A program made the position numbers and the translations under genes. From Prorocentrum cordatum (taxonomy: Eukaryota; Sar; Dinophyceae; Prorocentrales; Prorocentraceae), in contig CAUYUJ010015505.1 in NCBI GenBank assembly GCA_963575745.1, positions 363,285-427,284 of the forward strand: DNA of 64,000 nt, read 5' to 3'. Below, piece after piece: positions 3,250 to 59,348 of the stretch. Position 1 is the first letter of the stretch. Each line of letters starts with the position of its first letter. Under the pieces are notes generated by a model, which did no database searches, had not been told where the DNA came from, and saw only the letters and a list, made by a program, of their open reading frames with translations.

Positions 3250-3386
3250 TCGGGCGTGTCCCCCTACATGGGGTGTTTGAAGAAAATCAAAAGATATTCA
3301 AAACCATTCAAAAATCATTGAAACATCGTCACCAGACGATTGTTTGACTATGTTGGAATATTCCTCCTGTAGAGGGACAGGCCTGA
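3250..3386 (-). mobile_element. Introner family 1, copy A
   Basis: The left end TCGGGCGTGTCCCCCTACA and right end CCTGTAGAGGGACAGGCCTGA are inverted copies with a few mismatches, as in the other seven copies. Imperfect 8-bp direct repeats (CGGTAGAG and CGGCAAAG) flank it. CTAAC follows the inverted repeat on the minus strand. No coding exon is visible on either side, so this is either an old insertion or an intron of an unrecognised gene. Confidence 0.75.
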
Positions 3387-5829
3387 CCCAACGGCAAAGA
3401 CGAAGACGCGGCTGCAGATGAGAAGGACGGTGCTGACAGGTACGGGGGCACGACGAGGCAAAGGGCGCAGCAGGTGACGAGGAGACCCGCACTGAACCCA
3501 GCAATCAAATCGCCCCCTCCCCTGCCCCGCCATTGTCCTTTAGCCCCCCCTCCCCGCCCATCCCGTCGCCCTTTGTACCCCATCCGCCGTATAGGGGCGG
3601 AAGGTGAGGAGGATGAGATTTGCAGGCTTAGCGAAGGGCCCGTCGAGGAGGCAAGGGAAGGACTGTTTCGCCCACGTGCGCCATGACTCCTCAAAAACTC
3701 AAGTCCCCCTCCTTCCTCCGCATCATTATCATCATCCTGTAATCTCACCAGCCGTTTGGGCGACAGGTGGTCTGAGGAGGGTCTCTTTCCTCTTCCACAA
3801 CCCCTCCTCCCGTCGGGGAGGGGAACCCTCCCCCTCTCCTCCCTGAGGTTTTTGGGGGGATGTCGCGATGTGTCGGAGGCTCTTTTTTTCGGCCCCTGGG
3901 AGGGCCTTTTTTGCAATCCCTCACCAGGACCGTGGCCCCCGAGGGGGGGACGCAAGTCTACTACCCCCACTCTTTTGACCGACCGCCTCCAAGATGGCCC
4001 CAAGAGGCCCTCCAGGTCTCTCAGGAGGTTCCCAAAACGGCCCAAAGAGCGCCAAGAAACCCCAAGGGGCACCCAAATGACACACGAGAGGCCCCCAAGC
4101 GGCCCCCGAGGGGCCTCACAGAGCCCAAGATGACCTTCAAGATCTTAAGATAGCCCAAGCTAGCTCCAGATGGGCCCCAAGATGCTCCAAGAGGCCCTAA
4201 GACCGCTCCAAGACTGCTCAAGGTGGCCGCGGAGCTTCCCCAGGAGGCCACCAAGAGGCTGCCCGCCCCCGCTGTTTGACTACGCGTGTCTCTTCCTCTC
4301 TCCCCCTGTCAGCTCGCATGGTCAGCGAGCGTTTCTGGATGGGCTGGCTGGTGGAGATTTTTTTTTCGTCGCGGCCGCAAGCGGAAGCGCAGGCGGCGTC
4401 CGAAGTCAGCCCGGGCTACGAGCCTAACCTAGTTACCGAAGCTCGCGGACTAACGGCCGCCGAAACTGCCGCCTAGGAGCGCCGAGGAACGACGCCGGGG
4501 ACCGAAGGCAAAGCTGCAAGCGGTGCCAGGTGTGCCAGGCGGCTGAGGCGCAACCATTCCAGGGGCGATACTACCGCGAAGGCAAACGAATTGTACCTTG
4601 TCGCGCCAGGCGCAATGGGTAAACGAGCCACCCGAACAAAGCACGGCATAGCGTGGGGCTGAGCAGGCAGCCCACCGTACCTGTGTCGCATGCCAACAGT
4701 GGCGACCTCAGGTGGTTGAACAATAAAGATAAACCACTCATGAGCAATCCACGCGGAGATGCACCCCACCCTTGCGCAGCTGCAAACACGGCCAGGCTGT
4801 GGCAGTGTCTGGGGACCAGGGGCCATGAACACGCGAGCATGCTAGCTGGAGCTGGTCGACGTGCAAGTCACCGGAACGGCTGGTGGGGACACTTTTTCGG
4901 TCGCGGCCGCGAGACGACGGTCAGGCGGCGAAAGCAAAGTCGGGGACGCGAGCTAGGCGAATTAGCTAGGACAGGCGCAGGCCGGCCGGCCCACTCAGAC
5001 TGCAGCTGCGGGCTGAGTGAAGCTGAACTGATCGGCGCACTGCAAGCTCGGGCACGTGCGTTGGACAAAATGACCAGAATTCAAGCGGCCAAGGCACAAC
5101 CCGCACAGATTGGACGCGGACCTCGGTGGGCAAGTCTTTGTGCATGGTGAAGACGTGCTGGCCATTGGAGTGAGTCACCAATGTGGCGCCAGGCTCCAAA
5201 CGGACGACCTGAGCTAGCCAAGCAGGCTAAGCAGTCGTGAGCCGTGGTGCAACGCACAGGGGAGGCTGAAGGTGGGCCTGTAGGACTGCACCTGTTGCGG
5301 AAGGCTGGATCACTCTGTACCATGGCCAGCCCCAGTCAGACCACATCACAGTATCGGGGGGTAACCGAGCGACTGTGAGCCATCCAGCGCGTGTCGGCAC
5401 GGCAAGGCCACTGAGTGTGGGGCTGGTGGGGACACGCGAAGCGTCAAGAATTCGCCTCTTCCTCCTCCGACTCAACTTCGCGCTGCTGCTTAATCTCTCG
5501 CTCCTGCTCCTACACCTGCAACAACACCTACAACATCCTCCAACCCCCGCCGTTTCTGACAACACCTAGTTTAAATGCGGGCGGCTCCAACCTAACCGTC
5601 AGAAAGCAAACGACTTGTCTACATTAATCCGTTCAACTCACGCGATTAGTCAGCGACGTAACAACTGGTGTGGTCAAGATGAGACGCAGGGCGCATCCCG
5701 TGCGATTGAGCGAAGCGTCGCAGCCGTTCCAGCGACGAAGTGAAATGTCCTGGAAGATTGCTGTCGCTGACTAAGCCCTTATGCCATTGCGCGATGCCTG
5801 GCAAGACCTTTGGAATCCGGGCCAAGCAC
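3387..5829. other. Gene-poor stretch with repeat fragments
   Basis: Positions 3940-4260 hold the degenerate CCCAAGA-GGCC repeat that recurs at five other sites. Segments near 4337-4440 and 4878-4980 share a CTGGTGG-A/C-rich start, TCGCGGCCGC and a similar tail, which suggests a diverged dispersed repeat. Open frames around 4650-5565 have no recognisable domain on either strand. Confidence 0.55.
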
Positions 5830-6200
5830 ATCAACTCGGAACGTTGCTCTCGCTATCTCTCACTCTCTGCTTCTTTCTCCTCCGTTCCCCACACGCCTCC
5901 TCTCTGTATACACCCCTCTCTCTCCCCCTCTCCCCGTTTTTTGTTTTTGTTTTTGTTATGTTCTCTCTCTCTCGATGCATGAATATATAGATGTGTAGGT
6001 ATCTCCCTCCCTCTCTCTCCCCTTCTCCGTTTGTCTCTCTCTCTCTCTGTCTCGCCCGTGTCGGTTTGCTCTCTCTCTCTCTCTCTCGTTCTCCCTTTCT
6101 CACTCTCTCTCTCTCTGTCTTTCCCCCCTCCCCCCCTCCCTCTCTCATTCTCAATTTGACTCTCGCACTCTCTCGTTCTATCTCTCCTTCTCCCTTCTCA
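5830..6200. repeat. (CT)n low-complexity tract
   Basis: Long CT/TCTC runs with T-rich interruptions at 5935-5960. Confidence 0.9.
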
Positions 6201-6868
6201 GCCCTGCGAGCAACGTGGCCGCTTTGGCACGGCGCACGCCGCCCGCGCACCGGGCCCATCCGAATCGGTGCCGCGGTGCAAGCCGACAACCATTGTAGCA
6301 CGTAGGTGCGTTTAGCTATATGTCGTTACCGCCGCCAGCCAGTGTTAGGCCCCACTCACGGTGACCATCACTTTGACATCGAGTGGAAACCCACGCGGGA
6401 AAGTGGAGTCAGGATTGGGTGTGCGGCCAGCACCTGATATTTTCCAATCGGGCATGCGAGTCCTGCTTCATGTTCGCTCCGCGCGGGGGCTCGCGCATTA
6501 TTGTGGTCCAGTAGCGGGCGTTGACGTCCACAAATATTCCTGCTCTTCCCCACTCCCCCTGACGCCCTGAGGGTGCGAGGGTCAGCCTTGAACAACAAAT
6601 TACTCCGACGGTAGGACCCGACGGCCAATCTGGAAGTAACCCACGGACGCAAGCAAAATAACGAGCGGAACGTGACGTGTGGCAGAAAGAAGCAACCACG
6701 ACGAAAGAAACCGAAGTGAAAATACCGAGACGCCAGGATCGCAGGACCTCGGGACCCCGACGCGAAACCGAATTGGGGAAACTGCAGCTGGTTTCAGGGA
6801 CGCGGGCCCCACCCCCGCGCATGCGGCCAGCGGCGCGCAGGGCAGGGGAGCGACGGAAACCCACGTCC
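6201..6868. other. No gene or element seen
   Basis: Mixed-composition unique sequence. Short open frames only, and no domain recognised. Confidence 0.5.
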
Positions 6869-7210
6869 TTTCATGAGGCCAGAGGCTCCCGCGTGGAAAA
6901 AAACTGCGCGGCCAGAGGCTCGCGCAGCTGACGATGCCAGAGGCTCTCGTCGTACACCTGCGTTGCCAGAGGCCCACGCAGCTGACGAGGCCAGGGGCTC
7001 TCGCCGTCGACTGCATGAGAACCAGCTGTGCGGCCAGAGGCTCGCGCAGCTGACCAGGCCAGAGACTCTCGCCGACGCTGGCTGGATCATACAGAAGTCG
7101 TGCGCGGCCAGACGCACGCATACCCTGACGAGGCCAAAAGGCTCTCGCCTCGCTGAAAGCCCAGCGTGGCCAGAGGCACGCGCAGATGTCGATACCAGCG
7201 GCACTCGCGG
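6869..7210. repeat. Tandem minisatellite, GCCAGAGGCTC-based
   Basis: Imperfect repetitions of GGCCAGAGGCTCGCGCAGCT alternating with a GCTCTCGCC word, roughly 70 bp per double unit and about five units, decaying to the right. Confidence 0.75.
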
Positions 7211-7429
7211 GACCCCTGCTTGGGATCCGCAACCAAGCCGTCCCAGTAGCCCCCCGGGCAGCCCCCAACAGAGCCCAATATAGAATCCCCGAACAGCACC
7301 CAACAACACCCAAGAGGACACCACAAAACCCCGAGGCACGTGAAAACCTCCAGGAGACTCCCACGAAGCCTTCCATGAAGCTTCCATGAAGCCCACAAAC
7401 CGCCCCGGCGTCGCCACGGCATGATTCCG

Positions 7430-8295
7430 GCACGCGGGCCTATGACAGTAACACATTGGCCGACGACCAGCTCGGACGAGGCTACCCGCAATTCGCTCAC
7501 AAACGAGGCTCCCGCCTCGCACTTCCCCAAGATTCCTCAGGAGCCCCAAAATAACAGCCATTACAGGTTTCCGATGACCCGCTCGGATTACTCATGTGAG
7601 CTGCGGGCCCCATATAGAGAGGGGGCTCCCGCCTGAGACTTCCTCGCGATTGACTCACAGACGAGGCTCCCGCCTGATACATCCTCCAAATTCAAGCTTC
7701 AGGGGCCCAAAAATAACGACAGTTGCAGGAGGCCGATGACCCGCTCGGATTACTCACGTGAGCTGCGGGCCCCTGAGGCTTCCTCGCGCTCCCGCCTGAT
7801 ACTTCCTCCATCTGCAGGCCTCAGGGGCCCAAAAGTGACGACAGTTGCAGGAGGCCGATGGCCCGCTCGGATTGTTCGTATGAGCTGCGGGCCCCATGGG
7901 GAGGGGGCTCCCGCCCGAGACTTCCTCGCAGTTCACTCGCAGACGACGCTCCTGCCTTATACCTCCTCCAAATTAAAACCTCAGGGGCCCAAAAGTGACG
8001 ACAGTTGCAGGAGGCCGATGACCCGCTTGGATTACTCATATGAGCTGCGGGCCCTACAGGGAGGGGGCTCCCCCCGGAGCCTTTCTCGCAATTCACTCGC
8101 AGACAACGCTCCCGCCTGATACTTCCTCCACATGAAGAGCTCAGGGGCCCAAAAGTGACAACGGTTGCAGGAGGCCGATGACCCGTTCAGATTACTCAGA
8201 TGAACTGCGGGCCCTATAGGGAGGGGGCTCCCGCCTGAGACTTTCTCGCAATTCACTCACAGACGAAACTCCCGGCTGATACGTCCTCAAAATGA
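7430..8295. repeat. 163-bp tandem repeat array, about 5.5 units
   Basis: Units start at about 7573, 7735, 7855, 8018 and 8177 with CCGATGACCCGCTCGGATTA, contain GAGCTGCGGGCCC and GGGGGCTCCCGCC, and end CAGTTGCAGGAGG. The unit at 7735-7854 lacks about 40 bp. A degraded unit precedes at 7430-7572. Short frames inside it have no homologue I recognise. Confidence 0.9.
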
Positions 8296-8314
8296 ATGCG
8301 TGCGCGCGTGAGTG

Positions 8315-8315
8315 G

Positions 8316-8401
<86 letters not shown>

Positions 8402-8568
8402 CGCGTGCGGATGACGATGTGAGTGATGATGATGCTTGTGATGTAAGTGGTGGTAATGATGATGACGATGATGACGATGATGAGGGTGGTGGTGATGAGT
8501 GTGTAAGTGATTGAGTGACTGATGATGAAAATGATGTAATGAATGATGATGAAGAGGTTGATGGTGTT

Positions 8569-8607
<39 letters not shown>

Positions 8608-8610
8608 GTG
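8315..8610. repeat. (GAT)n tract with interruptions
   Basis: About 29 pure GAT triplets at 8315-8402, followed by mixed GAT/GTG/GAC triplets and a second purer block at 8560-8610. Confidence 0.95.
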
Positions 8611-9014
8611 TGTCTCATTGAATGAGTGGGTGTGCGAAAGGAGAAGAGCTCATCAGGTCTGTGTCGACTCATTGGGTGAATGACTGAAGACGATGATGAT
8701 GCTCACGATGATGTGTGTGAGTGAGTGGGTGTTCCTGTGTTCCTGCGCGGGGTGTCACAATAACCCCACTTTGGATGTGAGGAAACCGATGGGCGCAGAA
8801 CGGTGAGGCCGACGACAGAATGGAAAAAAGAAGGGCAGGACACCAGCATGCATATTGTCCAGGGCTGCTGGAACCACATGAGCAATGAGATCCAGCCGTC
8901 CACACCCCTCCTTCGCTTGTCCGCCCCCACCCTCCAAGAAGGCTCAGTCTCGCAACCCCTGCGGTGGTGGCAGCCCTGAACTGCGACACTTCGGATTCGG
9001 CCGTTCCGGCGCGA

Positions 9015-9844
9015 TCACACGGAGTATCCGTACGAGCACTTGTTCTCAGTGAAGCGAACCTTCGGCAACTGTGAGAGGTCTGTGCGAAGATGACACTCTG
9101 CTGAGCACTTGACCTTCAGCACGTTTACGCTGGCGGTGGTGCGCCCGTCGACCACCAGGCGGAGCTGGCTCCCTGACTGCAGCATCTCCTGCAGCATCAT
9201 CATGCCCACGTTCGGGGGGACATTGTCCACATCCACCTGGACACTGAACTGCGTTGACCCTCTTGCTGGCACCGTAGTAGGCAGAGTATCGGCAGCACCG
9301 ATCTCCTCGCCTCTGTACCGTATCTTGAAGACGCCTGAGGATGAGGAGAAGAGCAGGGCAGACACCCGACGTGCGTCCGATGACACCAGCGCTCTTGAAA
9401 TGGCGACGCACTTCGAGCAAGATGCTTACACCTCGGACGCACAAGAATTGAGCAGGGACCGACCGTCCTGGCCTTCCTATAGTCCTACCACGAAATGTTC
9501 TTAGAACCCAAAACTGTTCTAAGAAAAAACAATGTTCTTAGAACATAAGCCCGATGTGATACAACAAAACAGTCTCAACCAGACATGTTCTAAGAACATT
9601 TCGTGGAGACCACAAAAGGTTCTTAGAACATTGTTTGGTAGGCCTATAGGCACGCCAGGACGCTTCGCCACTGCTTGAAAGAAAGGCGGAGAACAGTTCC
9701 CCAGCACGCGCAGTCCTGCGCGCGAGCGAGGCGGCAACCCATCTGCGACCGGATGCACGTCGAGAGGCATCGAGGACGGGGGGAAGGGGAGGCCGTCGGA
9801 GGGGGAGGGAAGAGGACGAGGGTCCCGAAGACTGACGGGGCCCT

Positions 9845-9896
<52 letters not shown>

Positions 9897-10790: not shown

Positions 10791-10841
10791 CTGAGTGGAG
10801 GAAGGGGGAGGGGAGGGGACGGTTTGGGGCAAGGGACTAGG

Positions 10842-10988
10842 TCGGGCATGTCCTCCTACACGCAGAGCTTGGAGGAAGGATGAGAAGTCCAAAAGATATG
10901 CAAAAGTGCCCAAACGTGCTCAAAGCATCGGCCCCAGACCAGGTTTTGACTGTTTCTGAATATTTTCCCTGTGGAGGGGCACGCCCGA
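10842..10988 (-). mobile_element. Introner family 1, copy B
   Basis: Inverted ends TCGGGCATGTCCTCCTACA (left) and CCTGTGGAGGGGCACGCCCGA (right). Flanks carry imperfect 9-bp direct repeats GCAAGGGAC (10830-10838) and GCATGGGAT. On the minus strand the 3' side reads CGACCTAG. It lies between the LEA_2 exons and a signal-peptide-like open frame and may be an intron of that gene. Confidence 0.75.
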
Positions 10989-10990
10989 CT

Positions 10991-11326
10991 TCAGCATGGG
11001 ATGGTGAAGGGGGGGGGGGCCAAGAGGTGGAGGAGGGGGAGGCGGAGGGGCAGGACGCAGAGGGAGAGGGGCGCCGTTGCAGCCGCGGAGAAGCACACAG
11101 GGGGGGGGGGAAGGAGGGCGCCGGGGGAGAGAGCAGGAGGAGGCGACAGAGCGATGGGGGAGCAGAAGGAGGGACCGCCGCGCCAGTTGCGCGCCGCTCG
11201 GGTGCAGCACCTCCGCGTCTGCCACTGTTCTGGCACCGCGTCTGGCTGCTTCGGCGAGCGCTGCTGCCACTGAGAGCAGCCACAGGCGCAGACAAGGAGG
11301 AGCGGGAGCAGGATAAGAACTTTCAT
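10991..11326 (-). CDS. Possible N-terminal exon with signal anchor
   Basis: The frame from ATG at 11326 begins MKVLILLPLLLVCACGCSQ, a strong hydrophobic signal or lipoprotein-like leader, followed by a polar stretch with several cysteines and then low-complexity P/A/S. A longer start at 11353 adds nine residues. It lies upstream of the LEA_2 exons on the same strand, separated by an introner and a family-2 element, and could be the start of that gene, since many LEA_2 proteins are membrane-anchored. No splice path was proven. The downstream half is low complexity and the exon end is unknown. Confidence 0.25.
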   Translation of the reverse strand: MKVLILLPLLLVCACGCSQWQQRSPKQPDAVPEQWQTRRCCTRAARNWRGGPSFCSPIALSPPPALSPGALLPPPPVCFSAAATAPLSLCVLPLRLPLLHLLAPPPFTIPC

Positions 11327-11339
11327 TTCTATTGATTCA

Positions 11340-22801: not shown

Positions 22802-23550
22802 TTGTCAGGTCCGGGCGGTGTTTCGTCCCTTGATTCCTGTAACGTGGCACGAACAGCCCTACAGCAGCACACCAGAAAAGAAGCGGGGCTCCACGGAACG
22901 CTGGCGCCACCCGAGCGTGCAAAGACCCGTGCGGAGCAGCATTTAGCCGGCGCCCGCGCGAGGCCCGAGGCTCTCCGCGGCAACCTTCCATCGCAGCCGC
23001 TGCCCGGAAACAAAGGGCAAGCCCGAAACGAAGCAGTCGCGCAAGTTCTGGCGGCCGCTTGCCTCCGAAGCAACGCAGTGAAGCGAGACGAGGACGAAGC
23101 ACAGGCGGGGCAAGGGGTTTGGTGGGGCATGTCCTCTTGCGTACGGGCGGGCCCTGGAGGAAGAGAGAAAAAGAGGCAAGCAAGTCCCCCAGATCGCCGA
23201 ACAAAAGCATGTATAGCAGTCGCCCCCCGGCCATCCTCCTGCGATCTCTGCACACCCCTCCTGCGGAGGCACACGCCCGACCTCAGGCAAAAGGGAGGGG
23301 ACGAGGCGCAGGAGCGCCGAGGGCGTGCCGCGCTCGCCCCCCGACCGGCGCCCACCGCGGGGCACCGACCGGCGGCTTCCCGAGCCCCTCGGGCACCGCG
23401 CCTCGCGGGGGGAGAGCGCCTCTCTGCGCCGGCCTGCCCCGGAAGCGGCCGCGGGCGTCACAGGGTCGCGCCACGCCCGGGGCGCTGTGCAGCAGCCATG
23501 GGCCCAGCACTGCCGCCATCGTGGAAGACGACAGAGCGTCGGAGGCATAA
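22802..23550 (+). CDS. Putative gene split by an introner, function unknown
   Basis: The exon up to 23104 reads in a natural-looking frame (NEAVAQVLAAACLRS, VKRDEDEAQ). The exon from 23312 continues in the same frame (ERRGRAALAP). The 207 bases between contain introner copy C and can be removed as a GC-AG intron (GCACAG|GCGGGG ... GGCGCAG|GAGCGC). The 13-bp direct repeat GACGA[AG]GC[AG]CAGG makes both edges read DEAQ. The true start is not visible: the frame opens at TTG, and GTTGTCAG|GTCCGG near 22808 could be an acceptor. The second exon is Ala/Pro/Arg-rich, and its end before the foldback element is uncertain. The gene would be convergent with the channel gene. No family is recognised. Confidence 0.35.
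23105..23311 (+). mobile_element. Introner family 1, copy C, as a GC-AG intron
   Basis: The inverted core spans 23124-23280 (GGGGCATGTCCTC on the left, GAGGCACACGCCCGA on the right) and is more diverged than in other copies. It is flanked by a 13-bp direct repeat with two mismatches. The inferred intron starts GCGGGG and ends GGCGCAG. Its length (207 bp) is a multiple of three, so retention would not shift the frame, though it inserts foreign residues. Confidence 0.6.
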
Positions 23551-23694
23551 ACTTTTGGCGCTCCGCGCGGACTTCTGGGGTCTGCGCTGGGCCCCCCCTC
23601 CCTGGCGCGCGGAGCGCGGCAGGGGCGGCGCCGGGGGCGCCGCCAGGGGGGGTCCCAACGCAGATCCAAGAAATCCGCGCGGACCGTCAAAAGT
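23551..23694. mobile_element. Foldback element, copy 2, abutting the channel stop codon
   Basis: The left arm 23551-23591 and right arm 23654-23694 (41 nt each, about six mismatches) are inverted. The middle contains the palindrome GGCGGCGCCGGGGGCGCCGCC, which extends the stem. The right arm ends six bases from the TAA of the channel gene, so a transcript would carry a long hairpin at the start of its 3' untranslated region. Confidence 0.8.
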
Positions 23695-23700
23695 CCATGA

Positions 23701-25906
23701 TTATGCCGTCTTGTCTTCTTCGAGCTGTGAAGCAGCCATCGGCTCATCATTGCTGAAGTCGCTGTCCAAGGACATCTCTTTGGTCCACGCCTCGTGGAGC
23801 CTGGGCGTCGGCGCCGCGGTGCTGCCATGAACACCTCCTTCTGGAGTGCCCAGGGCGCCGTTGCTGCCGCCGCCTCCTGCGTCGACGTTGTTATCCGGCG
23901 CCCTCCTCGACACCCTTGTCCGCGAGCATCGGCTGCCGACCTCTGGCCAGCCCATCTCCTGCAGGCACGCGAGCATGCCCCGCTCGTGCAGGAAGCAGAC
24001 CCTCTCCTGCAGGTCCTGGATGCACGATATCTGCTGCCGCAGCATCTGGATCATCTGCGTGCTCTCGATCGACACGCCCTGCATGCCAGACGAGAGCGCG
24101 AGGTGGCACACGCCGTTCTCGAACTCCTGCTCGTCCAACTCCCCTGAATCGTCCACGTCGAGAAACTCGAACAAGTCCGACAACAACGCTGGCTGAATTA
24201 TGTCCCGCAAGTCGTCAGGTATGGAGATCGTATCGAAGTCGATCTCGCTGAACTGTATGTGCCCGTCCCCGGATTGGTCCAGGGCCTTGAACACCTGGTT
24301 TATCTGCGGCTTCAGGTCCCTGAGGCGTCTGCGCACCGCGAGGGCGGCCATGTCGGCGTCCGTCTTTGCGCACCCAATGGCATGATCGACTATGAGGGCA
24401 GTCACCAGGTTCATCAGGCACACAGGTACCACCAATATGACGGTAATGAAGTACACGCACAAGACAGGCCTCACTTTGATGATCGGCACGTAAATCGAAG
24501 CGATGGAGTCGTAGTTCGCAAACTGCACCAAGGTCAAAATCGCCATCGGGAGCGAGGAGAAGTGGAGCTCCATCAGCTGGGCCGTACGCGGGTCGCCCTG
24601 CAGGACCTCGTCCTCGGCCATCAGCTGCACCCCTATGCAGCCGAAGAGATATAAGCTGCCGAAGATCAGCAGACAGGCCGATGTGACGGTGCGCGCCGAG
24701 CCGATCATGCCGCGCACGAGCTTCCACATGTCCTTGAAGAGCTCCATTGCCCGCAGCGCACGCACCAGCCTCAGCAGCCGGAGGCTGCGCACGACCAGGA
24801 CCTGCTCCAAGAAGCCCAGCTCGTCACCGCTGTCCATGAGAGCCAGGAGAGAAGGCAGCATCCACTCTGAGAAGACGCCGACGGAGACTAGAAAGAAGTC
24901 GAAGATGAACCAAGCATTGTGGAAGCAGTGCCTGCCCCACGCAGCCAGCAGTATGCCGACCTCCACGACGTAGAACGCCAGGAACACGTTCTCCACGGCC
25001 TCGAGCGTGCTGATGTCCCTTCCGTCCAGCTCCCACTGCAACGAAATGCCTATGCAGAGGCTGTTGGAGAAGATGATCACGCCAACGAAGGCGTCGAAGA
25101 ACTTGGAGTGCGAGATGCGCCTGCAAAACCTTGACAAACCCCGAACACCTATCTTGCTGCGCAAGCTCGACCCGTGAAGAGATGAATTTGCACTCGCACG
25201 AAAGTCCCAGCTGGTTTCCAGTGTTCGCATGGCGTTGTCCTTCAGGTTGCGCCCAGCCCGATAAAGGTCTCGGCGTGCAATCGCATCCTGCTGCGCGCTG
25301 TTCGCGTTACCCCTGGCGTCGGTGCCCGTCATGGAGCTCGAGCTGTCGCTGCGCAGGGGTACCTTGCCCTTGGCCGGCGACTTCACCATGAAAGTGCGCG
25401 GTGAACCCGACGTCGCGTGGCTGGTGGCGTTGCTTTGCACGGTGTGCCAGAGGCCCGGCCTGGCCTGGAGCTCCGCGTGGCTGGAGCCGTCGCCGGCCGA
25501 CCTCAGGTCCTGCAGGACCTGCAGGATCGCCTGCTGGCCCTGCTGCATCTCCCGCAGCTCGCGCCGCATCTTCTGCTCCTGGCGTTAGCTCGGGCGTGTC
25601 CCCCTACAGGGGGATGCTGGACGAACACACAAACAAAGACCCCCAAAATGCTCCCAACGACCCCAAACCTAGTCGAAGCATCCTCCCCCTACGACTTTGA
25701 AACCACTCCTGAATCTGACCCCTGCAGAAGGGGACACGCCCGACTGGCTCCTGGCGCCACAGGTCCCCGATCTGCCCGCGCAGCTCGGCGTCGTCCTCGG
25801 CGTGCCCGGCCGGGCCCGGGTCGGCGTCCCCGGCGGCCCGCGGGTGGCCCGGCCACGGGCTGGGCCCGGCCTCCTGGGCGGCAGGCCGCGACATCGTGCC
25901 GGGCAT
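23701..25906 (-). CDS. Single-domain voltage-gated cation channel with paired EF hands
   Basis: Exons 25906-25751 and 25578-23701 give 677 residues from the ATG at 25906. A coiled coil (about residues 35-80: ELRGQIGDLWRQE joined to QKMRRELREMQQ) is rebuilt across the junction. Then come S1 (about 214-233), S2 (247-266), S3 (275-293), S4 (312-330, VVRSLRLLRLVRALRAM with arginines every third position), S5 (348-372), a pore loop (392-413) with TLVQFANYDS, and S6 (422-451). Two canonical EF loops follow, DQSGDGHIQFSE (486-497) and DVDDSGELDEQE (526-537). The plan matches one-domain Na+/Ca2+ channels of protists, which act in plasma-membrane excitability with Ca2+ feedback. The filter lacks the usual acidic residue (TLVQ instead of TLES/TLDS), so selectivity is unclear. 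The frame is open 5' of the chosen ATG; the relict spliced leader at 26332-26344 supports a leader exon upstream. Confidence 0.9.
25579..25750 (-). mobile_element. Introner family 1, copy D, a GA-AG intron in the channel gene
   Basis: Minus-strand reading: CGCCAG|GAGCCAGTCGGGCG ... GCCCGAGCTAACGCCAG|GAGCAG. The 10-bp direct repeat CGCCAGGAGC flanks the element, and one copy remains after splicing. The inverted ends are TCGGGCGTGTCCCC (25590) and its partner ending 25743. CTAAC sits between the inverted repeat and the acceptor AG. Removal keeps the frame and restores a coiled coil; retention would not. Confidence 0.85.
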
Positions 25907-25949
25907 CGTGCCGCGGCGGGCCTCGCGGTGCGCTGAGTCAGCCCTTCGG

Positions 25950-26275
25950 TCGGGCGTGGCCCCCTGCAGGCGGATTGGTTGTCGGCGGTGGACAGACCTC
26001 CCTTTGGTACACCTCCCCTGCGTGAAAACGGCCTGGGACCAGAATCGACGGGCCTGGACCCGCAGAAATGACGGCCGCGACGCCCTCTCGCGAACCGAAA
26101 ACGGCCAATTCCTTAATCGACGTGTCAGGGTAGGTCTACCCACCTCCGAATTTGGGACGCAAAACTTTAAAAAAAATCAACAATATTTAAACATAGCGTT
26201 TTTCAATACAAAAAACTACCTCTGACAATTGATGAACTATTTTTGAATACTCCTCCTGTAGAGGGACAGGCCCGA
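25950..26275 (-). mobile_element. Introner family 1, copy E, probably in the channel 5' UTR
   Basis: Inverted ends TCGGGCGTGGCCCCCTGCAG (left) and CTGTAGAGGGACAGGCCCGA (right). The body is longer than in most copies (326 bp) and contains A/T-rich sequence near 26160-26250. On the minus strand a good acceptor CTGACTCAG|CGCACC lies 45 bases before the channel ATG. The donor is unclear (GGGG|GTAGCG is possible). No clean direct repeat beyond AGCG. Confidence 0.7.
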
Positions 26276-26331
26276 CTGAACGCTACCCCCAGGGGGCTAC
26301 ACGCGCGCGCCAGGCCCCCCCCGCGCCGGAG

Positions 26332-26344
26332 CTTGAGCCAAAAG
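26332..26344 (-). promoter_or_regulatory. Relict dinoflagellate spliced-leader sequence
   Basis: The minus strand reads GGGCCCACTTTTGGCTCAAG. Its last 12 bases, TTTTGGCTCAAG, match the 3' end of the conserved 22-nt dinoflagellate spliced leader exactly, and the preceding CCA aligns after one inserted base. It lies about 425 bp upstream of the channel ATG on the coding strand. Genomic spliced-leader relics next to genes are known to mark retroposed, previously trans-spliced mRNAs. Confidence 0.6.
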
Positions 26345-26568
26345 TGGGCCCGCAAAGGGGCGCCAGTGGGCCCGTACGCGGGGCCTTGGTGGGCCGCCTC
26401 GTCGCGGAAGAGCCTTGGTGAGGCCAGGCGGAGTTATTGATGCGAACTCTCACTGCACCGACCTTGCAGACGTGCTGCAACGTATGGTTGCATGGATTTC
26501 TGTTAGTGCAAAACCCCGAAAGGGCGGATGAAAAACGAAGCGAGTTTCGCGCGGATTTCCTGTGGTCA

Positions 26569-27215
26569 TCATTCCTGGGCGACAAAAACCCGCACTACAT
26601 ACACTTCGAAATCCTGAGCGGAATCCTCCAAGGCAATCCGGGCCCATCCCATTGTTTTCCGAGCGAAACCCGCTCTGCGATGTTGGCGCCATGAGATCTC
26701 TGAGTGACCCCCTCCAAGAGAGCCCGAGAATACCACGACGCAGCGAGCGCAGCCCTCACCTTGCGTGAAGTCGGGCCTGCCCCTCTACAGGAGGCACATC
26801 CAAACATACATTGCAACACAAATCGTCAGGCGACGATTGCTTTCTACTATTTCCTGATACTCTTGCACGTTTGTTTGGGCGCCCGAGTTATCCGGGGTAA
26901 CTCGGGTCCGGGGTAACTCGGGTTTGGATTCCCGAAAAAGGAACCCGAGTTAACCCTGACCCGAGTTACCCCTGATGATTCGGGGCTCTGATTTGTGGCG
27001 TTGTTGTTTCCCCCGCTGTTCGCCCAAAACCTGCCTGTGGGAGGCCAGGCCCGACCTGAACCTGGCGCCCGCCCTCGACCCGCGCAGCACCCGCCGGCGG
27101 CATCCGCCCCCCTCTCCGTGGGCGCCGCCCCGGCGCTCTCCGAAGCCGCTCGGATGCCCACGACGGCCTTCGAAGCAGCCCCGGCAGGCCACCAAAGGCC
27201 GCCGAGGTGGCCCAA
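26569..27215 (-). CDS. Putative C-terminal part of a gene spanning an introner
   Basis: The left exon (26759-26569, ending TGA) and the exon ending at 27062 join across a 302-bp GT-AG intron. Upstream sequence reads AVVGIRAASESAGAAPTERG and ends GRGRAP. After joining it continues GEGCARCVVVFSGS, then MGWARIALEDSAQDF and VYVVRVFVAQE before the stop. Composition changes from GC-rich to balanced across the junction. No domain is recognised, and the 5' part runs into a repeat near 27190. It would end about 225 bp upstream of the relict spliced leader of the channel gene, in the same direction. The chance of an accidental open frame is not negligible. Confidence 0.3.
26760..27061 (-). mobile_element. 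Introner family 1, copy F, with a nested palindrome
   Basis: Minus strand: CGCCAG|GTTCAGGTCGGG ... CCCGACTTCACGCAAG|GTGAGG, a GT-AG intron bounded by the direct repeat CGC[CA]AGGT. The inverted core is 26771-27054. Inside it, 26878-26985 is a separate palindromic insert built on CCGAGTTA[CT]CC and GGGTAACTCGGG, with arms of roughly 45 bp, absent from the other copies. Confidence 0.7.
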
Positions 27216-36619: not shown

Positions 36620-37870
36620 CGAGAACGATGGCCGCAAAGACCAAGATCTGCTGGGCGGGGCCGCACCGCGAGCTGCGGTGCACCGCCGCCAGAGTTAGGT
36701 CCGGCATGCCCTCCTACAGGCAGATCTTGGAAGCAAGACAACGAGCAAGAAATGCCCAAACATTGTCGAAAATTAAACAGTCCCACTGGATATTCAGAAA
36801 CCATTCTTGGCTAGATTCCTCCTGTGGACGGGCATGCCCGACTTCAGCGCAGTGGCCATCGCAGCCCAAGACGGGGTCGACTCGCGCTGGGCGGGCCGAA
36901 GCGCTCCACACTCGGCCGCCCAAGCGAGCGGCGGGGGCGGCAACGCGCGCACGAGCTTGCGCCCGGCCCGCTCGCCGAGCGGAGCGACGCCCTGCACAGC
37001 CGCAGGAACCGACGCGGGCGAGCGCTGCTGCCGGCAGACGCGGGCAGGGCTCGAGGACAAGAGCGTCGCGCCGAGGTCGACGACGGTCGCCGAGAGGGTG
37101 GGGAAGGCGCACCCGCGCGCGAAAATCGGCACTGCGGCACGGACAGATGTTCAGACTGTTCAGACTACCTCGAGAGTCTCTCGCTCGCCGCTACAGGCGC
37201 GGACCCCGACCCCGGGGAGGAGACCAGCCCCACGCAGGTTCCGCTCGGGGGAGACCCAACAGGGCCAGGGGGCACCAGGCCCCCGATGCACGGACAGATG
37301 GAGGAGCGCGCGGGCCCTCGGCGCGTGCAGACCTGCGCGTGCACGAGGGGCACGGCAGCGTCAGCGCACCGGCCCGGCTGGCGTTCGAAGCCCGCACTCG
37401 ATCGCGCGAGGAGCCAACGACGTGGATGCGTCTAACCTCCCGCTTCCACGCGGCCCTGTCAGCCCTTAGGGCGGCCTATGGCGCGGCGCGGTCCTCGCCA
37501 CAGGATTCGGCCGAATCTTGCGGTCCGTCTCGTGGCTCGTCGAAGGCGGGCAGGCCAGGGAAGAAACCCGAGCTCTGCAGCATCACCGCATCGCTGCGCA
37601 CAGTCGCCATCCACGGCACGGGCAGTTCGCGCGAGCGCGCGTGTAGGGCGGCCACCAAGCTGCGAGGCCGCTCGCGCTTCACGCGTCCAGGGTACAGTAG
37701 CCGGCTCACCATCAGCAAGCAGACGATCGGGGCATGCCGAGGGAGAAGCGCACTGCATGATCCGTGACGCTGTACTCGTGCGAGTGGCGCATCAGGCCTG
37801 CAGTCCGCCGCCGACCCAGCATTTCCATACAACAATGAGCTCCTGAACGGCTCGCGGGGCGACCACAAAT
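36620..37870 (-). CDS. Possible multi-exon gene around introner G, unknown function
   Basis: Three minus-strand stretches look like exons. Near 37476-37740 the frame reads VCLLMVSRLLYPGRVKRERP and SGFFPGLPAFDEP. At 36842-37132 it reads PTLSATVVDLGATLLSSSPA and GERAGRKLVRALPPP. At 36620-36695 it reads LAAVHRSSRCGPAQQ and VFAAIVLGG. The introner lies exactly between the last two. A CCGCAG|TGCCGATT acceptor near 37135 fits the middle exon. Donor sites and the frame across the introner are unresolved, and a plus-strand frame of 464 codons overlaps everything. No domain is recognised. Confidence 0.25.
36700..36841 (-). mobile_element. Introner family 1, copy G
   Basis: Inverted ends TCCGGCATGCCCTCCTACAG (left) and CTGTGGACGGGCATGCCCGA (right). 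On the minus strand it starts CTGAAGTCGGGC and ends CGGACCTAACTC, with the CTAAC word next to the inverted repeat. A CACCGCAG|CTCG acceptor lies about 20 bases downstream. No convincing direct repeat. Confidence 0.75.
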
Positions 37871-50441: not shown

Positions 50442-50473
<32 letters not shown>

Positions 50474-51450: not shown

Positions 51451-51454
51451 GGAC

Positions 51455-51486
<32 letters not shown>

Positions 51487-52375: not shown

Positions 52376-52770
52376 CGATTGTGATATCGATAGTGAAATC
52401 GATATTGAGACCGAATGTGAGATCGATTGTGTGATCGATTGTGAGATCGATTGTGAGATCAAGTGTGAGATCCATCGAATGAGATAGATCGAGTGAGATC
52501 GATTGTGAGATCGATCGAGTGAGATCGATCGAGCGAGACCGATAGTGAGATCGATACTGAGATCGATAGTGAGACCGATCGAGTGAGACGTTGGTTCCCC
52601 CCCCCCCCGAACCTCCTTATCACCCGAAGGGTGGTCGTATAGGTATATACATACATGCATACATACATACATACATACATGCATACATGCATCCACATGC
52701 ATCTACATGCATCTACATGCATCCACACATCCACACATACACACATACACACATACATACATATTTCTCG
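52376..52770. repeat. 12-bp GAGATCGATTGT array, then (CATA)n
   Basis: About 17 units of the 12-bp repeat at 52376-52590, a C run, then CATACATA/CATGCATC repeats at 52645-52765. Confidence 0.92.
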
Positions 52771-53149
52771 GTGTTTCCGCTAACGTGCCTCTGGGCACGG
52801 AGTGGGCGTGTCCTCAAGTCCTCTGCCTACTGCTCTAAGCCTCAAGCCTCACTCCCGAGGAGTCTCTTAAGGAGCCCGGACCCCAACTTCTCCCATTTAC
52901 CGAGGCGTCCCGCGTGCCCCCTGTGGGAACAAGGAAAAGCGACACCAACACCACCAGGGCGAGGAGATGCGAAGAGGCACGGGGGGTCTCCCTGGTGGTG
53001 TGGTCCCCCCCTCTCGCTCGAGACATCCCCAGCCTCCAGCTCGGGGAGGCATCGTGGACCTCCTCGCTGGAGGTGGGCCACCTGGTGGTGTTGATATCGC
53101 TTCTCCTCCCTCCGACCCTGGGCTCTGGGAAATGTTCCCGCATGAATTT
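52771..53149. other. No gene seen
   Basis: Unique GC-rich sequence with frames open on both strands and no domain. Confidence 0.45.
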
Positions 53150-53700
53150 CACGGGCCCGAAAAGGCCTCTACACAGACGAGCACGGGCCCCAAGAAGCCC
53201 CCACGACGGTCCAAGAGGGCCCCGAGTCGCCGAACGATCGCTCCAAGGCGCTCAAGATGGCCCCCAGACGGCCCAAGGAGCCTCCAAGACGCCCCCGAGG
53301 AGGCCTCCAAGAAGCCTCCCGAGAGGGCCCCGAATTCCCTTGGGGTCTTGAAGGATTTGAGCGTTCTCGCCTTTTCAGCTTCCCGACGCTCCCAGACGGC
53401 CCAAGAGGCCTCCAAAAGGGCCCAAGAGGGCCCCAAGACGGCCCAAAAGGCGCTCAAAACGGCCCAAAAAGGTCCAAGTCTGCCCCAAAAAAGGTGGCCC
53501 AGAGAGGGAATACGAAACAAAAAATCCGAGCCTTCCGCCCCAAGAGGCCCCCAGGAGGCCCCATGCCCCACGAGGTACCAAGAAGCCCCCAAGTGGTCCA
53601 AAAGAGGCAACAATATGCACCAAAACGGCCCCCAACAGTCGTCCAAACTGCCTCCGAGAGGCCCCCGAGAGGCCTCCCACGAGATCCCAACGAACATCCA
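53150..53700. repeat. CCCAAGA-GGCC repeat with core
   Basis: The core 53350-53395 reads GAGCGTTCTCGCCTTTTCAG then CTTCCCGACGCTCC. Confidence 0.85.
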
Positions 53701-54060
53701 TTAGGCTTCATACCCGCAACCCAGGCACGGTGGCGGGATGGGCCGAAGGCCATTATCCGCCGCCCCCTGTCGATTCATCGCAGGGGTGCCTGGCGTGCTA
53801 GACCCTTTCGGTTTTGGTTTGGGTTCTTCTTCCAAAGGAACTTCGCCCGTCGCCGCCGCCGCCGTTACTGCCGCTCGCGGGCGGTGCCGCCCATCGCCGC
53901 CGTCGCCGTCGCCGTCGCCGTCGCCGCCGCTCCAGGCGAATGACGGTTTTTGCGGGCGGTGCCGCCCGTCGCCGCCGTCGCCGTCGCAGATATTGCACGG
54001 CATAGGTTGAATGACATAGGTTGCTGCGCGCAAATGGCACCGCATAGATTGCGCCATATA
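53701..54060. repeat. GC-rich GCCGTCGCC repeats and 14-bp satellite
   Basis: GCCGTCGCC words at 53850-53990 related to the 72-bp repeat, followed by 14-bp satellite units at 54000-54060. Confidence 0.75.
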
Positions 54061-54229
54061 TATTCTCCTTTCTAAAAACAGAATAGGATCTCCTCCCCCC
54101 CAGCGTTATCGGTTCACCTTTCGGGTATGTAAATCAAATATGATTCTGACCAAATGTCCATCCTAAGTATGAATTTAAACTATCCCCGGGGGGCGGCATC
54201 CCCCCCCTGAGGTTCCTTCGTACAAAAAA

Positions 54230-54712
54230 AAACACTATGCGGTGACATTGTTTGCTCCAACATAACACTTTTCCACGAATCCATTGCAAAAAAAAGGGAC
54301 GAAGTGCACACGCGCGCGTCGTCGCGCGCGCATGCCGAAATCCTTCAAAAACTCTCGGTGCCGGAAAGATTTCGCAATCGAGTTTCCAAAAAACATACAA
54401 AAAACATACGGTTTCGCAGTACTGATTTGCGAAAAAAAGCTTACGCGCGAGCTCTTGCGAAATCTTAAGAAAACCATCGGTTTTCAATATTTACACAAAA
54501 TTCTACCAAACGGGCTTCGCGCGCGCGCGCATGTCGAAATCTGTCGAACGCCCTTGCGCGTGTGCCGTCGCGAGAACCCTTTGCAAAACATGTGACGAAG
54601 TGCAGACGCGCGCGCCGTCGCGCGCGTATGCCGAAATCCTTCGAAACCCATCGGTTTCGGAAGGATTTCAGAATCGTGTGTCCAAACAACCTACAACAAC
54701 ACAAGGTTTCGT
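54230..54712. repeat. Repeat of about 305 bp, reversed relative to 39 kb
   Basis: GACGAAGTGCA[CG]ACGCGCGCG recurs at 54291 and 54596, with CGCGCGCATGCCGAAATCCT words. Reverse complement of the family at 39345-39880. Confidence 0.8.
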
Positions 54713-54716
54713 CGAT

Positions 54717-54772
<56 letters not shown>

Positions 54773-55330
54773 ATTCATCTTCATCTTCATCATCATCATC
54801 ATCATCGTCTTCCCTCCACCCTCGTCGTTATCATCATCAGCGTCGCCGTCCTTCCTCCTTCTTCGTCGTTCGCGTCGTCGCCGTCCTCCCTCCTCCCTCG
54901 TCGTTGTCGTCGTTGTCGTCGTTGTCGCCGTCGTCGTCCTCCCTCCTCCATCGTCGTCGTCTTCGTTGGCGACGTCGTCGTCGTCTTTATCGTCGTCGTC
55001 GGCGTCGGCGTCGTCGTCGTATTCGTCGTCGTCGATGTCGGCGTCGTCGTCGTCGCTGCCGTCGTCGTCGTCGTCGTCGGCGTCGTTGACGTCGTCGTCG
55101 TCGGTATCGTTGTTGTCGTCGTCGTCGGTGTTGTCATCGTCGTTGTCGTTGTCATCGTCGTCGTCGTCTGCGTCGGTGTCGTCGTCGTCGTCGTCGGTGT
55201 CGTCGTCGTCGATGTTGTCGTTGTCGGCGTCGTCGAAGTCGTTGGAGACGTCGTTGGTGTCGTTGTAGTCGTTGTCGGCGGCGTCGTCGTCGTCGGTGTC
55301 GCTGTCGTGGCCGGCGTCGCTGTCGTTGCC
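54713..55330. repeat. (ATC)n and (GTC)n tract
   Basis: Pure ATC at 54716-54772, then GTC/GTT triplets to 55325. Open in several frames. Confidence 0.95.
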
Positions 55331-55379
55331 AAGTGCCATTTTGTACCCACCGTCACGGTCTTAAGAGATTTTGCAAACC

Positions 55380-56215
55380 AAGTTGCGGGTGGGTGGGTGG
55401 GATGTTTGCGCGAGCAGTGTAGTGGACAACTCACTGCGAACAGAAATTAATTACACCACATAGATAGCACCGCATACGTTGCATTACATAGGTTGCCGCG
55501 CGTAGATTGTACCACATATATTGAACCGTATGTATGGCATTACACAGGTTGCACTGCGTAGGCTGTACCACATAGATTGCACCGCATATATTGCATTACG
55601 CAAGCTGCATCGCGTAGATTGCATCAAACATATGTTTTTCGTGTGTATATATATGTATATATCGGTGTGTATATATACATATATTGCACCGCGTAGACTG
55701 CAATAGCATACTGTTTGGGGTCCACGCTGGCTAACATCAGGGCACTCTATGTGGTGCTACCTGTGGGGGGCGCTACAGGCTGTGAAATCTGTGTGGTGCC
55801 ATCTATGTGCGGCAATCTGTGTGTTGTACACCCTAGGTGGTGCAACCAATGTCGTACAACATGTGTGGTGCAACATATGTTGTGCAATCTATGTGGACGC
55901 ACCAGTGCGGTGCATGTTATGCGGAGCAGTCTTTGTTGTGCAAGCTGTGCTGCAACAAAAACATGTTGTGCAATCGATTGGACTGCGACAGGGGCGGGTG
56001 GGAGGGGGCCACGGAGCGGCGGCGACGGGACGGGGCGGCGACGGCGACAACACAGCCGCCAGACCAGCGGTCAGGCCCAAACGACGGGCAGCGGCGAGGC
56101 GGCGACGAGGCGGCGACGGCGACGGCACAGCCGCCAGACCGACGCGCAGTCTCAGAGGACGGGCGGCGACAAGGCGGCGACGGGGCGGCGACGGCGACGA
56201 CACAACCGACGAACA
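55380..56215. repeat. Composite: reversed dispersed-repeat end, 14-bp satellite, 72-bp repeat
   Basis: 55385-55435 is the reverse complement of the start of the 45.65-kb repeat. 55440-55700 holds 14-bp GCACCGCATAGATT units. 55740-55970 holds the complementary-phase GTGGTGCAATCTATGT units. 55985-56215 holds three 72-bp units. Confidence 0.85.
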
Positions 56216-57539
56216 GGCCCTACTCCCTTAAAGCATAAGTAAGTACCCCTGAGTGCAAGCACTGCTTGGGGAGTCTCTGTATGTACGCACAGGAAGATAG
56301 CAAAACACCAAAAACATATATGCATGCTTCTGTGGAGGGAAGGCAAGACAAAAAGAGGGAGACAGAGAGAGAGAGAGAAAGAGAAACAAAAAGATAATGA
56401 GGTTGAGAGAGGGATGGAAAGAGAAAAGGCGATTGCACGGGCCACTTCCCAAAGTTCTGACCGTGAAGTGCTGGAAGAGTGGCCATGAAGGTCCCACGAG
56501 CCCGCAGATGGAATATCACGATGACGATGGGATAAGGGAGGAAGGAGGAGCAGGAGGAGCAGGAGGAGCACAATGACAAAGGGGAGAAGGAGAAGGAGGC
56601 GGAGGAGGAGGTGGAAGATGATATTGAGAGGGAGGAGGAAGATCCTTCGCCCTGTCTGCTCCTATGCTCCATGATCTCACATGCATTGTCAACCTCGGGC
56701 GGCTTCCTCGTTGCTGCCCTGTTTGGTGTCGGGATCGGTCGGCAGCTGACCACGAAGATCCGGCTCTCGGTCACGGATCAGCGTGCAGCCAAGCTTGCGG
56801 CAGCCCCTGGCCAAGCCGACGCCGCAGAGGTCCGCGGTGGGGCATCCGCTGGTGTCGGCCGGGGCCATCCCCTTGAGGCCCAGAGTGGGGATGTCGATGT
56901 GCTCCTTGGACGGGTGCGTTTGCTCAATCAACGACCGACCATGGCTCCAACGGTCTCCCAGACTACGGGTGTGCCCGAGGGGCGCTCGTGTGGAGGAGGA
57001 GGCGTAGCACCGAGGGGGTTATGAGGACTAGGTACAGGAGGAAAAGACCTGTCAGCACTAGGAAGTCTAAAGTGGATACTTGTCGACTGCAACATTCAGC
57101 GGATGCCGACGCCAGTCCGCCAGTCTCCCTTTGAGGCTCGTGTTAACGTTCTGGATGCTTCGTTCAAGGTCAACGGATTTCTACCACTATAGCAACAGCC
57201 CTCTGCTCCCACCAGACTGTGCAAGGACAGGACCAGATGCTGATGCTAATTTTCTGTGACGAGTAAGCGGCTTGCTCAACTAGTCAGGGCAAAAAGAATG
57301 GGGGAGAAGGAGCAGGAGAGAAGAGCTGATATCAACCAGCTCGAGAGAGACCTGACAGTGCCAACTTCATTAAACACCGTCCCGAACGTAGCGATTACCA
57401 CGATCTGCATAGCGTGCGTTTCAAGGCGCATCAAGCCAGTGGACCCTAACTAGCAAAAAATGGCGGCAAGCAGCTAGGAGAGCGAACACACTGAGAATGA
57501 AAGGGAGGAGGAAGAGGACCAGTGTAAACCAAAGACCCA
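56216..57539. other. No confident gene
   Basis: GA-rich at 56345-56400 and 56545-56640. A plus frame (ATG 56611, 137 codons) and a minus frame (56689-56931) cover the same mixed-composition bases, and neither shows a domain. 57025-57539 is unique. Confidence 0.45.
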
Positions 57540-58440
57540 TCAACGATGTTGGAATAAGCCCTCCCTGCAAGCTGCCCCCTCATAGGCCTCTACAACAGTT
57601 CATTTCCACTGAGGGAACTGCCTCGTTGGAAAACATATGTTTGTGAAGACCCTGAAACATCCGAAAACATTATTCTCGGGACTCCAACGCCACGGATCAA
57701 CCTGACTGTTGCGTCTTGACGATCCTGAATTGTGCCAGAACGCCACTCCTGGGATTTCAAAACCGAGAATCAACGTACATGGTGGGCCCTCATAATCCAG
57801 AATCTTTTCAGAACGCCATGTCTGGCATGGTTGCCATGGAAATCCGTGAAACTCTTGCAATTTGTTTGAACGAATGCGCGCGGCGTTATAGCGAAAACAA
57901 CATTTTGAAAACCACCCGCCCTCAATCCGTGAAGCTCTTCCGTATGTCTAAAACGAATGTGCACGGCGCCAAGTTAAGAACCACATGTTGAAAACCACCC
58001 GCCCTCAATCCGTGTGAAGCTACATTTAAAAAGCGAATGTGCGCGGCGCCAAAGCGAGAACCACATTTTGAAATCAACCCGCCCTCAATCCGTGAAACCC
58101 TTGCAAAAGGTTTGAACCGAATGTGCGCGGCGCCAAAGCAAGAACCACACATTTTAAAAACCACCCGCCCTGAATCCGTGAAGCTCTTGCAACATTTTAA
58201 CGCGGTGTGCGCGGCGCCAAGACGAGAACCACATTCTGAAAACCACCCGCCCTCAATCCGTAAAACTCTTGTAAATGTTTAATACGAATGTGCGCGGCGG
58301 TAAGGCGAGAACCACATATAGAAAACCACCGGCCCTCAATCTGTGAAGCTGTTGTCAATTGTTAAGCTTCAGGGTCTGAGGAAGTCTTAGGCGAAAAGTC
58401 CGGCCCGCCCTAAAAACTGGCCTCGGGGCGCTGGGATAAG
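57540..58440 (-). repeat. Composite repeat block, copy 2, inverted
   Basis: In reverse orientation to 21236-22150: the unique tail (57540-57870), then about six satellite units of about 75 bp with CCCGCCCTCAATCCGTGAA and GCGCGGCGCCAA, then the CTGAGGAAGTCTTAGGCG boundary. The minus frame 57600-57860 reads FEIPGVAFWH and VDPWRWSPEN and ends PQWK. Confidence 0.87.
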
Positions 58441-58580
58441 TTATTATTATTGACGCTATTGTTATAAGGAAAAGGAAATTGTGGAGGAGGAGCAGGAGAA
58501 GGCGAAGGATGAGGTGAGGAGCGCCGGGCGTCAGGCGGCCAAGAGGCGGGCACCCGCCACTTCGACGACGCACGGGCTCC

Positions 58581-59348
58581 TCACCACAGGGGCGGGAACG
58601 CCAGAACGCCGTCCGCCGCGATGCTCCCGGCGCCGTGCCCCACGACCCACGCCTGCCGAATCCTCGGCTTAGGTCGGGCATGTCCTCCTACAGGCGGGTT
58701 ATGGACGAAAAATAAAACACCGTCCAAAAACGATCCAAATACGACACATCAAAAACGCAGTCGAGAACGACACATCAAATCGTTCCCTGATGATTCTTTG
58801 AGACTGTTTCTGCATACTCTTCCTGTGGAGGGACATGCCCGACTTCGTCCTCGGCGTGGCCGCGCACGGCGTGGCCGCCCGCGGGGCGGGCGCCCCCGAT
58901 GCTGCCGGCGCCCGCCGGGCAGCGGCCTGCGGCGTGGCCGCCCGGGGCTCGTGCGGCCCGGGCGCCGACGCCCCCGGCGCGGACGCCCGCGGCGCCTGCG
59001 GCCGCGGCGCGGGCCCTCCGCGCAGCAGCGCGCGTCGAGCAGCGGCCTGCGGCGTGGCCGCCCGAGGCGTCGCCGCCGCCCGTGCCGTGGGCACGCAGGG
59101 GGCGGAGGCGCCGTCTGCGAGGGGCGCCGTCTGCGAGGGGCCGCCCTGTGGCGGCCGCGTGCCCGCGGCGGCGCGCGCCGGAGCGCGGGCGGAGAAGGAG
59201 GCCGACGGGGTGCAGTGCAACACGCGATGGCCGATGGGCTCGAAGACGTTCCCATCCCAGCTGCACTTGCCGGCGCGGCCCTCCGGCGCATTCGCCCGGA
59301 AGATCCTCTCGGCCTCAGCGCCCCGCACCATCGGAATCGATAGGCGGC
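58581..59348 (-). CDS. Putative gene split by an introner, Ala/Pro-rich, unknown function
   Basis: Exon 59348-58850 (after acceptor GGAACCAG|GCCGCC) starts with natural-looking sequence, SIPMVRGAEAERIFRAN and CSWDGNVFEPIGHRVLHC, then becomes Ala/Arg/Pro-rich with repeats such as RAATPQAAARRA. A 187-bp introner is removed as a GA-AG intron, and exon 58662-58581 adds RIRQAWVVGHGAGSIAADG and stops at TGA (58583-58581). The 5' exons are not identified. Frames in the Ala-rich part are ambiguous because all are open in such GC-rich sequence. No family is recognised. Confidence 0.38.
58663..58849 (-). mobile_element. Introner family 1, copy H, a GA-AG intron
   Basis: Minus strand: CACGCCGAG|GACGAAGTCGGGC ... 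GCCCGACCTAAGCCGAG|GATTCG. The perfect 8-bp direct repeat GCCGAGGA bounds it. The inverted core is 58674-58842. A CTAA-like word follows the 3' inverted repeat, seven bases before the acceptor. The pattern is the same as copy D in the channel gene. Confidence 0.8.

Follow-up and report, generated by a model that had tools for sequence, protein, structure and literature searches.

A very abundant family of small inverted-repeat elements in the dinoflagellate Prorocentrum cordatum, and the probable supply of splice signals by its duplicated target

The origin of new introns is a long-standing question, and a stretch of 64,000 nucleotides from the dinoflagellate Prorocentrum cordatum (assembly GCA_963575745.1, contig CAUYUJ010015505.1, positions 363,285 to 427,284; hereafter the window, numbered from its first letter) raises it in concrete form. 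Eight short segments scattered over it begin and end with the same inverted repeat, and a reading made from the letters alone (the sequence-only reading) had proposed that they are non-autonomous DNA transposons doubling as introns. Are they one family, and do they behave as introns? We find that all eight belong to one family of small non-coding terminal-inverted-repeat elements, similar to miniature inverted-repeat transposable elements (MITEs), and that this is a very abundant family of an already published introner kind. Comparison with deposited proteins gives good support for one copy, 25590, being an exactly removed intron of an ion-channel gene. All eight segments with common inverted ends were found at the places first noted, the start of one being corrected from 23124 to 23123; they are listed below with their extents, lengths and flanking duplications (matches out of eight positions at a fixed offset).

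Copy 3250: 3245..3391, 147 bp; duplications CGGTAGAG (3237-3244) and CGGCAAAG (3392-3399), 6/8.
Copy 10842: 10837..10993, 157 bp; duplications GCAAGGGA (10829-10836) and GCATGGGA (10994-11001), 7/8.
Copy 23123: 23118..23285, 168 bp; duplication 3/8.
Copy 25590: 25585..25748, 164 bp; duplications TCCTGGCG (25577-25584 and 25749-25756), 8/8.
Copy 25950: 25945..26280, 336 bp; duplication 4/8.
Copy 26771: 26766..27059, 294 bp; duplications ACCTTGCG (26758-26765) and ACCTGGCG (27060-27067), 7/8.
Copy 36700: 36695..36846, 152 bp; duplication 4/8.
Copy 58674: 58669..58847, 179 bp; duplications TCCTCGGC (58661-58668 and 58848-58855), 8/8.

Taken by itself and allowing 3 mismatches, the 14-base motif occurs 32 times in the window against 31.2 expected, which is chance level; the evidence for a family rests on the longer paired ends. 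In a profile built from the 16 ends, 15 scored 22.4-39.5 bits; above 9 bits the window held just two further sites, 12337 (16.6) and 36823, which overlaps an end of 36700 (12.7), and 20 Markov shuffles reached at most 17.6. With 15.1 bits, the right end of 25590 scores below both the unrelated site 12337 and the best shuffle, and under a leave-one-out profile it falls to 6.6, the left end of 23123 scoring 15.6. The 8-bp duplication slot was placed exactly 5 bp outside TCGGGC on both sides of each of the eight copies, and the summed match at this fixed offset is 47/64, as compared with a mean of 17 and a maximum of 36 in 100,000 random placements, which bears out the earlier observation that several of the segments lie between direct repeats. 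A screen blind to the motif, asking only for inverted repeats and duplications, returned six places, namely 25590, 26771, 58674 and the unrelated 9494, 60651 and 60684; on shuffled sequence 11 of 12 runs gave none and one gave 1.

The interiors, described at the outset as unrelated, prove to be related in six of the eight copies, each of which aligns over more than 50 bp with another copy (3250 and 10842 over 152 bp at 68% identity); 23123 and 36700 have little in common with the other copies beyond the ends. In predicted RNA folds the two ends pair in all eight copies (12-32 pairs, outer 42 nt, plus strand), and in all eight the interior G+C is lower than that of the flanks (0.33-0.61 vs 0.62-0.70). 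Window G+C per 4 kb is 0.53-0.63, consistent with the published P. cordatum genome mean of 59.7% (PMC10666404; this and the papers below are cited from parts of their text). Scans with Rfam, at its gathering cut-off, and for tRNAs gave no match. Inverted ends common to dispersed copies, together with a duplication of constant 8-bp length that differs between sites, are what defines a terminal-inverted-repeat element of the MITE type. As an observation apart, copy 26771 contains a palindrome at 26882-26984 with 43-nt arms (88%), which is absent from the other seven copies.

The same ends recur throughout the genome. A 19-base end pattern, with at most 2 mismatches, was searched in the assembly of 4,128,499,153 bases and matched 88,629 + 88,226 = 176,855 times, as against 93 + 91 = 184 for the reversed-pattern control. 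In the window the pattern gave 8 matches from six of the eight copies. Assuming one pattern match per copy, the genome total corresponds to about 1.8x10^5 copies, a figure good to the order of magnitude only. The genome mean is 2.7 matches per 64 kb vs these 8. Copies outside the window were sampled from 50 stretches around exact pattern matches, a choice that favours copies with one intact end, and from contig C1, of which 200 kb were sampled at fixed steps (20 stretches, L036-L055, including 10.8 kb of N). Pairing ends within 400 bp gave 33 copies (19 of 30 stretches, 13 of 20 and one from C1), the other 18 of the 50 being dropped. The end profile found 3 ends and 1 pair in the 200 kb of C1, compared with eight copies in the 64-kb window, so the copies are unevenly spread.

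The outside copies repeat the features of the window. Thirty-one of the 33 are 139-177 bp long, the other two 223 and 232 bp, and direct repeats, proposed as a check on genome-wide copies, are present: duplications match at six or more of eight positions in 27/33 (8 of them perfect), a level that mismatched pairings reach in 2.7%. Together with the paired ends in the window, these data strongly support the sequence-only reading in its claim of a non-autonomous DNA transposon. The short copies have a median identity of 71% over 100 pairs (maximum 82.7%), which marks the family as old in the sample studied. Raising the pairing limit to 1,200 bp brought six further candidates of 688-1,180 bp, with duplications from 1/8 to 8/8, some of which may be wrong pairings. 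Most of these longer candidates (L012, L020, L025, L028, L035) carry internal tandem repeats; in L035 the units are of about 90 bp and the duplication is perfect. Viral contigs held no exact 21-base end match, and in prokaryote contigs there were five, whose best partner end within 450 bases matched at 14/22 and was taken as chance.

The case for an intron comes from the gene in which copy 25590 lies. On the minus strand, a 627-codon frame (23701-25584) encodes ion-transport and EF-hand domains (Pfam). At 100% identity it matches a deposited 'unnamed protein product [Prorocentrum cordatum]', here P0001, which maps to the window as follows (a slash outside brackets marks a splice cut).

First piece of P0001: 25748..25906, minus strand, residues 1-53, start codon at 25906.
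Second piece of P0001: 23719..25575, minus strand, residues 54-672, ion-transport and EF-hand domains.
Third piece of P0001: 22946..23509, minus strand, residues 673-860, contains copy 23123.
Proposed channel-gene intron: 25579..25750, minus strand, 172 nt, CGCCAG/GA...CGCCAG/GA.

The gap in the mapping of P0001 measures 172 nt, that is 164 + 8, or the element plus one duplication. The end of the first piece is ambiguous within the duplication; AG/GA, which sets it at 25751, is the only exact cut with a GT, GC or GA donor and an AG acceptor available at this copy. Reading through the element instead would shift the frame and run into a stop inside it after 100 codons, and the paralogue P0002, from another contig, is collinear with P0001 and shows no gap across the junction. 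P0003 was considered as a second witness and not used: its start holds RQEQK by eye, and BLASTP leaves that part unaligned. Splice sites carried by the element itself (TTAG/GTCGGGC with an acceptor at the opposite end) were likewise set aside, as they would give no exact removal and the mapped intron uses the duplication.

Could the duplication supply splice signals more generally? In the 27 well-kept outside duplications, with strands pooled, the consensus is nn(C/G)TA(G/C)nn, with C 0.63, T 0.70, A 0.70 and G 0.63 at positions 3-6, and at position 7 G is not favoured over C. Both duplication copies carry AG at positions 5-6 on at least one strand in 21/33 outside pairs, all 21 among the 27, against a background of 12.4%, the share of octamers at pattern loci. 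A palindromic, AG-bearing target thus tends to supply an acceptor AG. If a cut counts as exact when it falls within the duplication and has a GT, GC or GA donor, three of the eight window copies allow one (25590, 26771 and 58674), in each case at position 6 and on the minus strand; it would be AG/GT at 26771 and AG/GA at 58674. Among the well-kept outside copies, 4/27 have an exact cut at position 6 vs a background of 3.75%. Of the four outside copies listed with a possible cut, L010 and L024 have duplications that are not identical to each other, and their computed joint is unreliable.

The statement that four segments can be removed as usable introns within an open frame was accordingly too strong: the fourth, 36700, could be cut only across an eroded duplication (4/8 match), and the open-frame argument itself was abandoned, as a frame of 198 codons or more still spanned the deletion in 59% of 1,500 trials with random deletions. 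Doubling as an intron is supported for 25590 by the deposited protein and the paralogue, and is possible for 26771 and 58674, where the cut would be exact; for 23123, which is translated in P0001, the deposited protein speaks against it.

We propose that an old non-autonomous MITE, through its duplicated AG-bearing target, supplies both splice signals when a copy lands suitably in an exon, and consider this explanation probable. The standard copy would be about 140-180 bp long, with ends near TTAGGTCGGGCRTGTCCYCCTACAGG and TTAAGTCGGGCATGTCCCTCCACAGG facing each other, flanked by an 8-bp target duplication. We infer a transposase that would prefer the palindrome nn(C/G)TA(G/C)nn, leaving AG at duplication positions 5-6 on at least one strand. 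Should the insertion fall in a transcribed exon where this AG runs on into GA, GC or GT, the donor would come from the upstream duplication (AG/GN, accepted in dinoflagellates) and the acceptor from the downstream one (AG/G). RNA splicing there would remove the element and exactly one duplication, leaving the mRNA unchanged. Further introns of this origin would then be expected in some number; many copies are probably not introns.

Several observations weigh against this proposal, and some of them favour a simpler one, namely that the family is an ordinary, very abundant MITE residing mainly in non-coding DNA, that 25590 hit a rare lucky AGG target and that 'introner' is an unfair name for it. 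Among the well-kept outside copies, exact cuts at any position of the duplication are no more frequent than background (5/27 vs 17.9%), and it is this that lowered our confidence in the proposed mechanism to its present level; the four outside copies with a possible cut lie in sequence of zero or negative codon score. The chance of three cuts in eight window copies is 0.096 for a cut anywhere and 0.0015 at position 6, a position chosen post hoc. Support for intron status concerns one copy of the eight. Just one recognisable gene lies in the window (a Pfam scan of 20 open reading frames (ORFs) matched the ion channel only); 3250, 10842, 36700 and 58674 are tied to no recognisable gene, and 25950 and 26771 sit upstream of the channel start codon. 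Fourteen junction peptides from four of the eight copies found no match among deposited proteins at E 0.001. Against the ordinary MITE stands that the target motif itself puts AG into the duplication, and that four of the eight copies fall within 22,946-27,060 (4.1 kb) around the recognised gene (binomial 0.001, noticed post hoc). Keeping both sides in mind, we judge the ordinary MITE unlikely but not negligible, and retain the duplicated target as the probable source of the splice signals.

Doubts of another order concern the data themselves. P0001 is a deposited prediction, its joint being read from the protein, and the gap at 25590 would be an artefact if the gene were mispredicted and the copy left unspliced. 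In keeping with this, P0001 has a doubtful tail that translates copy 23123 (about residues 748-803), and its first 252 residues matched no transcript-derived protein in a search whose length limits exclude P0001 itself. That third piece may be a prediction error, because exon 2 read straight on stops after residue 677. An artefact at 25590 is nevertheless very improbable, as removal of the copy restores a reading that P0002 keeps without a gap, and its retention shifts the frame. Mere chance inverted repeats in GC-rich DNA would fit the behaviour of the short motif with 3 mismatches; set against the long paired ends, the duplications at fixed offset and about 177,000 genome matches where the control gave fewer than two hundred, they are hardly credible.

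The surroundings of the copies add a few observations. Copy 25950 lies upstream of the channel start codon (25906), from which its end is about 40 bp away; it may belong to the 5' untranslated region or influence the spliced-leader acceptor. When codon usage was scanned with the channel gene as sole training set, the frames picked out besides the channel were mostly simple-repeat ORFs. At 136-315 on the minus strand, a short frame with GNDYADVAAKRG is reminiscent of a non-LTR retrotransposon RNase H; it had no match in Pfam. A different imperfect palindrome occupies 9451-9675 (58-nt arms at 79%), and its ends are unlike those of the MITE family.

Duplications of 8 bp are also made by transposon superfamilies other than hAT. 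Within hAT, the Buster group and its MITEs, such as Mar, resemble the present family in their short non-coding copies and in an 8-bp duplication of the form nnnTAnnn (PMC3517528), and in our 27 duplications T and A likewise reach 0.70 at positions 4 and 5. The ends, in contrast, do not agree and tell against a Buster assignment: Mar ends in CAG(G/A)GGTAGGC (PMC3517528), the P. cordatum family in TTAGGTCGGGC and TTAAGTCGGGC (TTAGG and TTAAG).

The sequence-only reading was right that introners are known in dinoflagellates, and they are published for P. cordatum too, whose introns are reported as enriched in introner elements, with GT, GC and GA donors at 24.7, 51.4 and 23.8% and AGG acceptors at 79.7%; in that work transcript mapping and predictors were altered to allow GC and GA donors (PMC10666404). 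Those enriched introns are alike in species and in their inverted repeats at both ends, but were detected by searching in general terms for inverted repeats of 8-20 nt and direct repeats of 3-5 nt, and the parts of the text consulted define no family, 8-bp duplication or target motif. No published definition of the present MITE family was found in titles and abstract openings, a coverage outside which subscription papers and supplements fall. Introners of Amoebophrya (PMC7789003) and Symbiodinium microadriaticum (PMC9860276) are likewise dinoflagellate introns with inverted repeats at their ends and direct repeats at their borders; the direct repeats measure 3-5 nt in the former (PMC7789003) and 4 bp in the latter, which brings its own 3' splice site (PMC9860276), whereas in P. 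cordatum they measure 8 bp and both sites would come from the duplication. The survey PMC9860276, in whose main text 'Prorocentrum' does not occur, describes introner families of 5 to more than 2,000 copies each, among them families whose two splice sites both derive from the insertion site, and one family with 8-bp duplications. In Florenciella sp. (legend to its Fig. 2E) both splice sites likewise come from the target and none from the element, in another lineage; the P. cordatum family shows in addition the 8-bp duplication and the palindromic AG-bearing target. Those of Aureococcus sp. (legend to its Fig. 2F) share the 8-bp duplication, but bring both splice sites with them and lengthen the transcript by 12 bp, whereas the proposed 25590 intron would add nothing.

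A larger claim, which appears to us doubtful at present, is that one family of about 10^5 copies, with a transposase targeting an AG-bearing palindrome, seeded thousands of exactly spliced P. cordatum introns. If it is true, the base that comes after AGG in the target would set the second donor base; families of this sort would then explain the GT, GC and GA donors as well as AG/G at both intron ends in dinoflagellates, and the dinoflagellate splice code would follow the target choice of transposases. With ends, duplication, target motif and copy scale defined in an alga that has a sequenced genome and a transcriptome, the share of copies that are introns can be measured from existing data, as can AG/G in the duplication as a candidate trait setting intron copies apart. 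The family offers a way to test whether the target choice of a transposase is tied to the AG/G splice signal of dinoflagellates.

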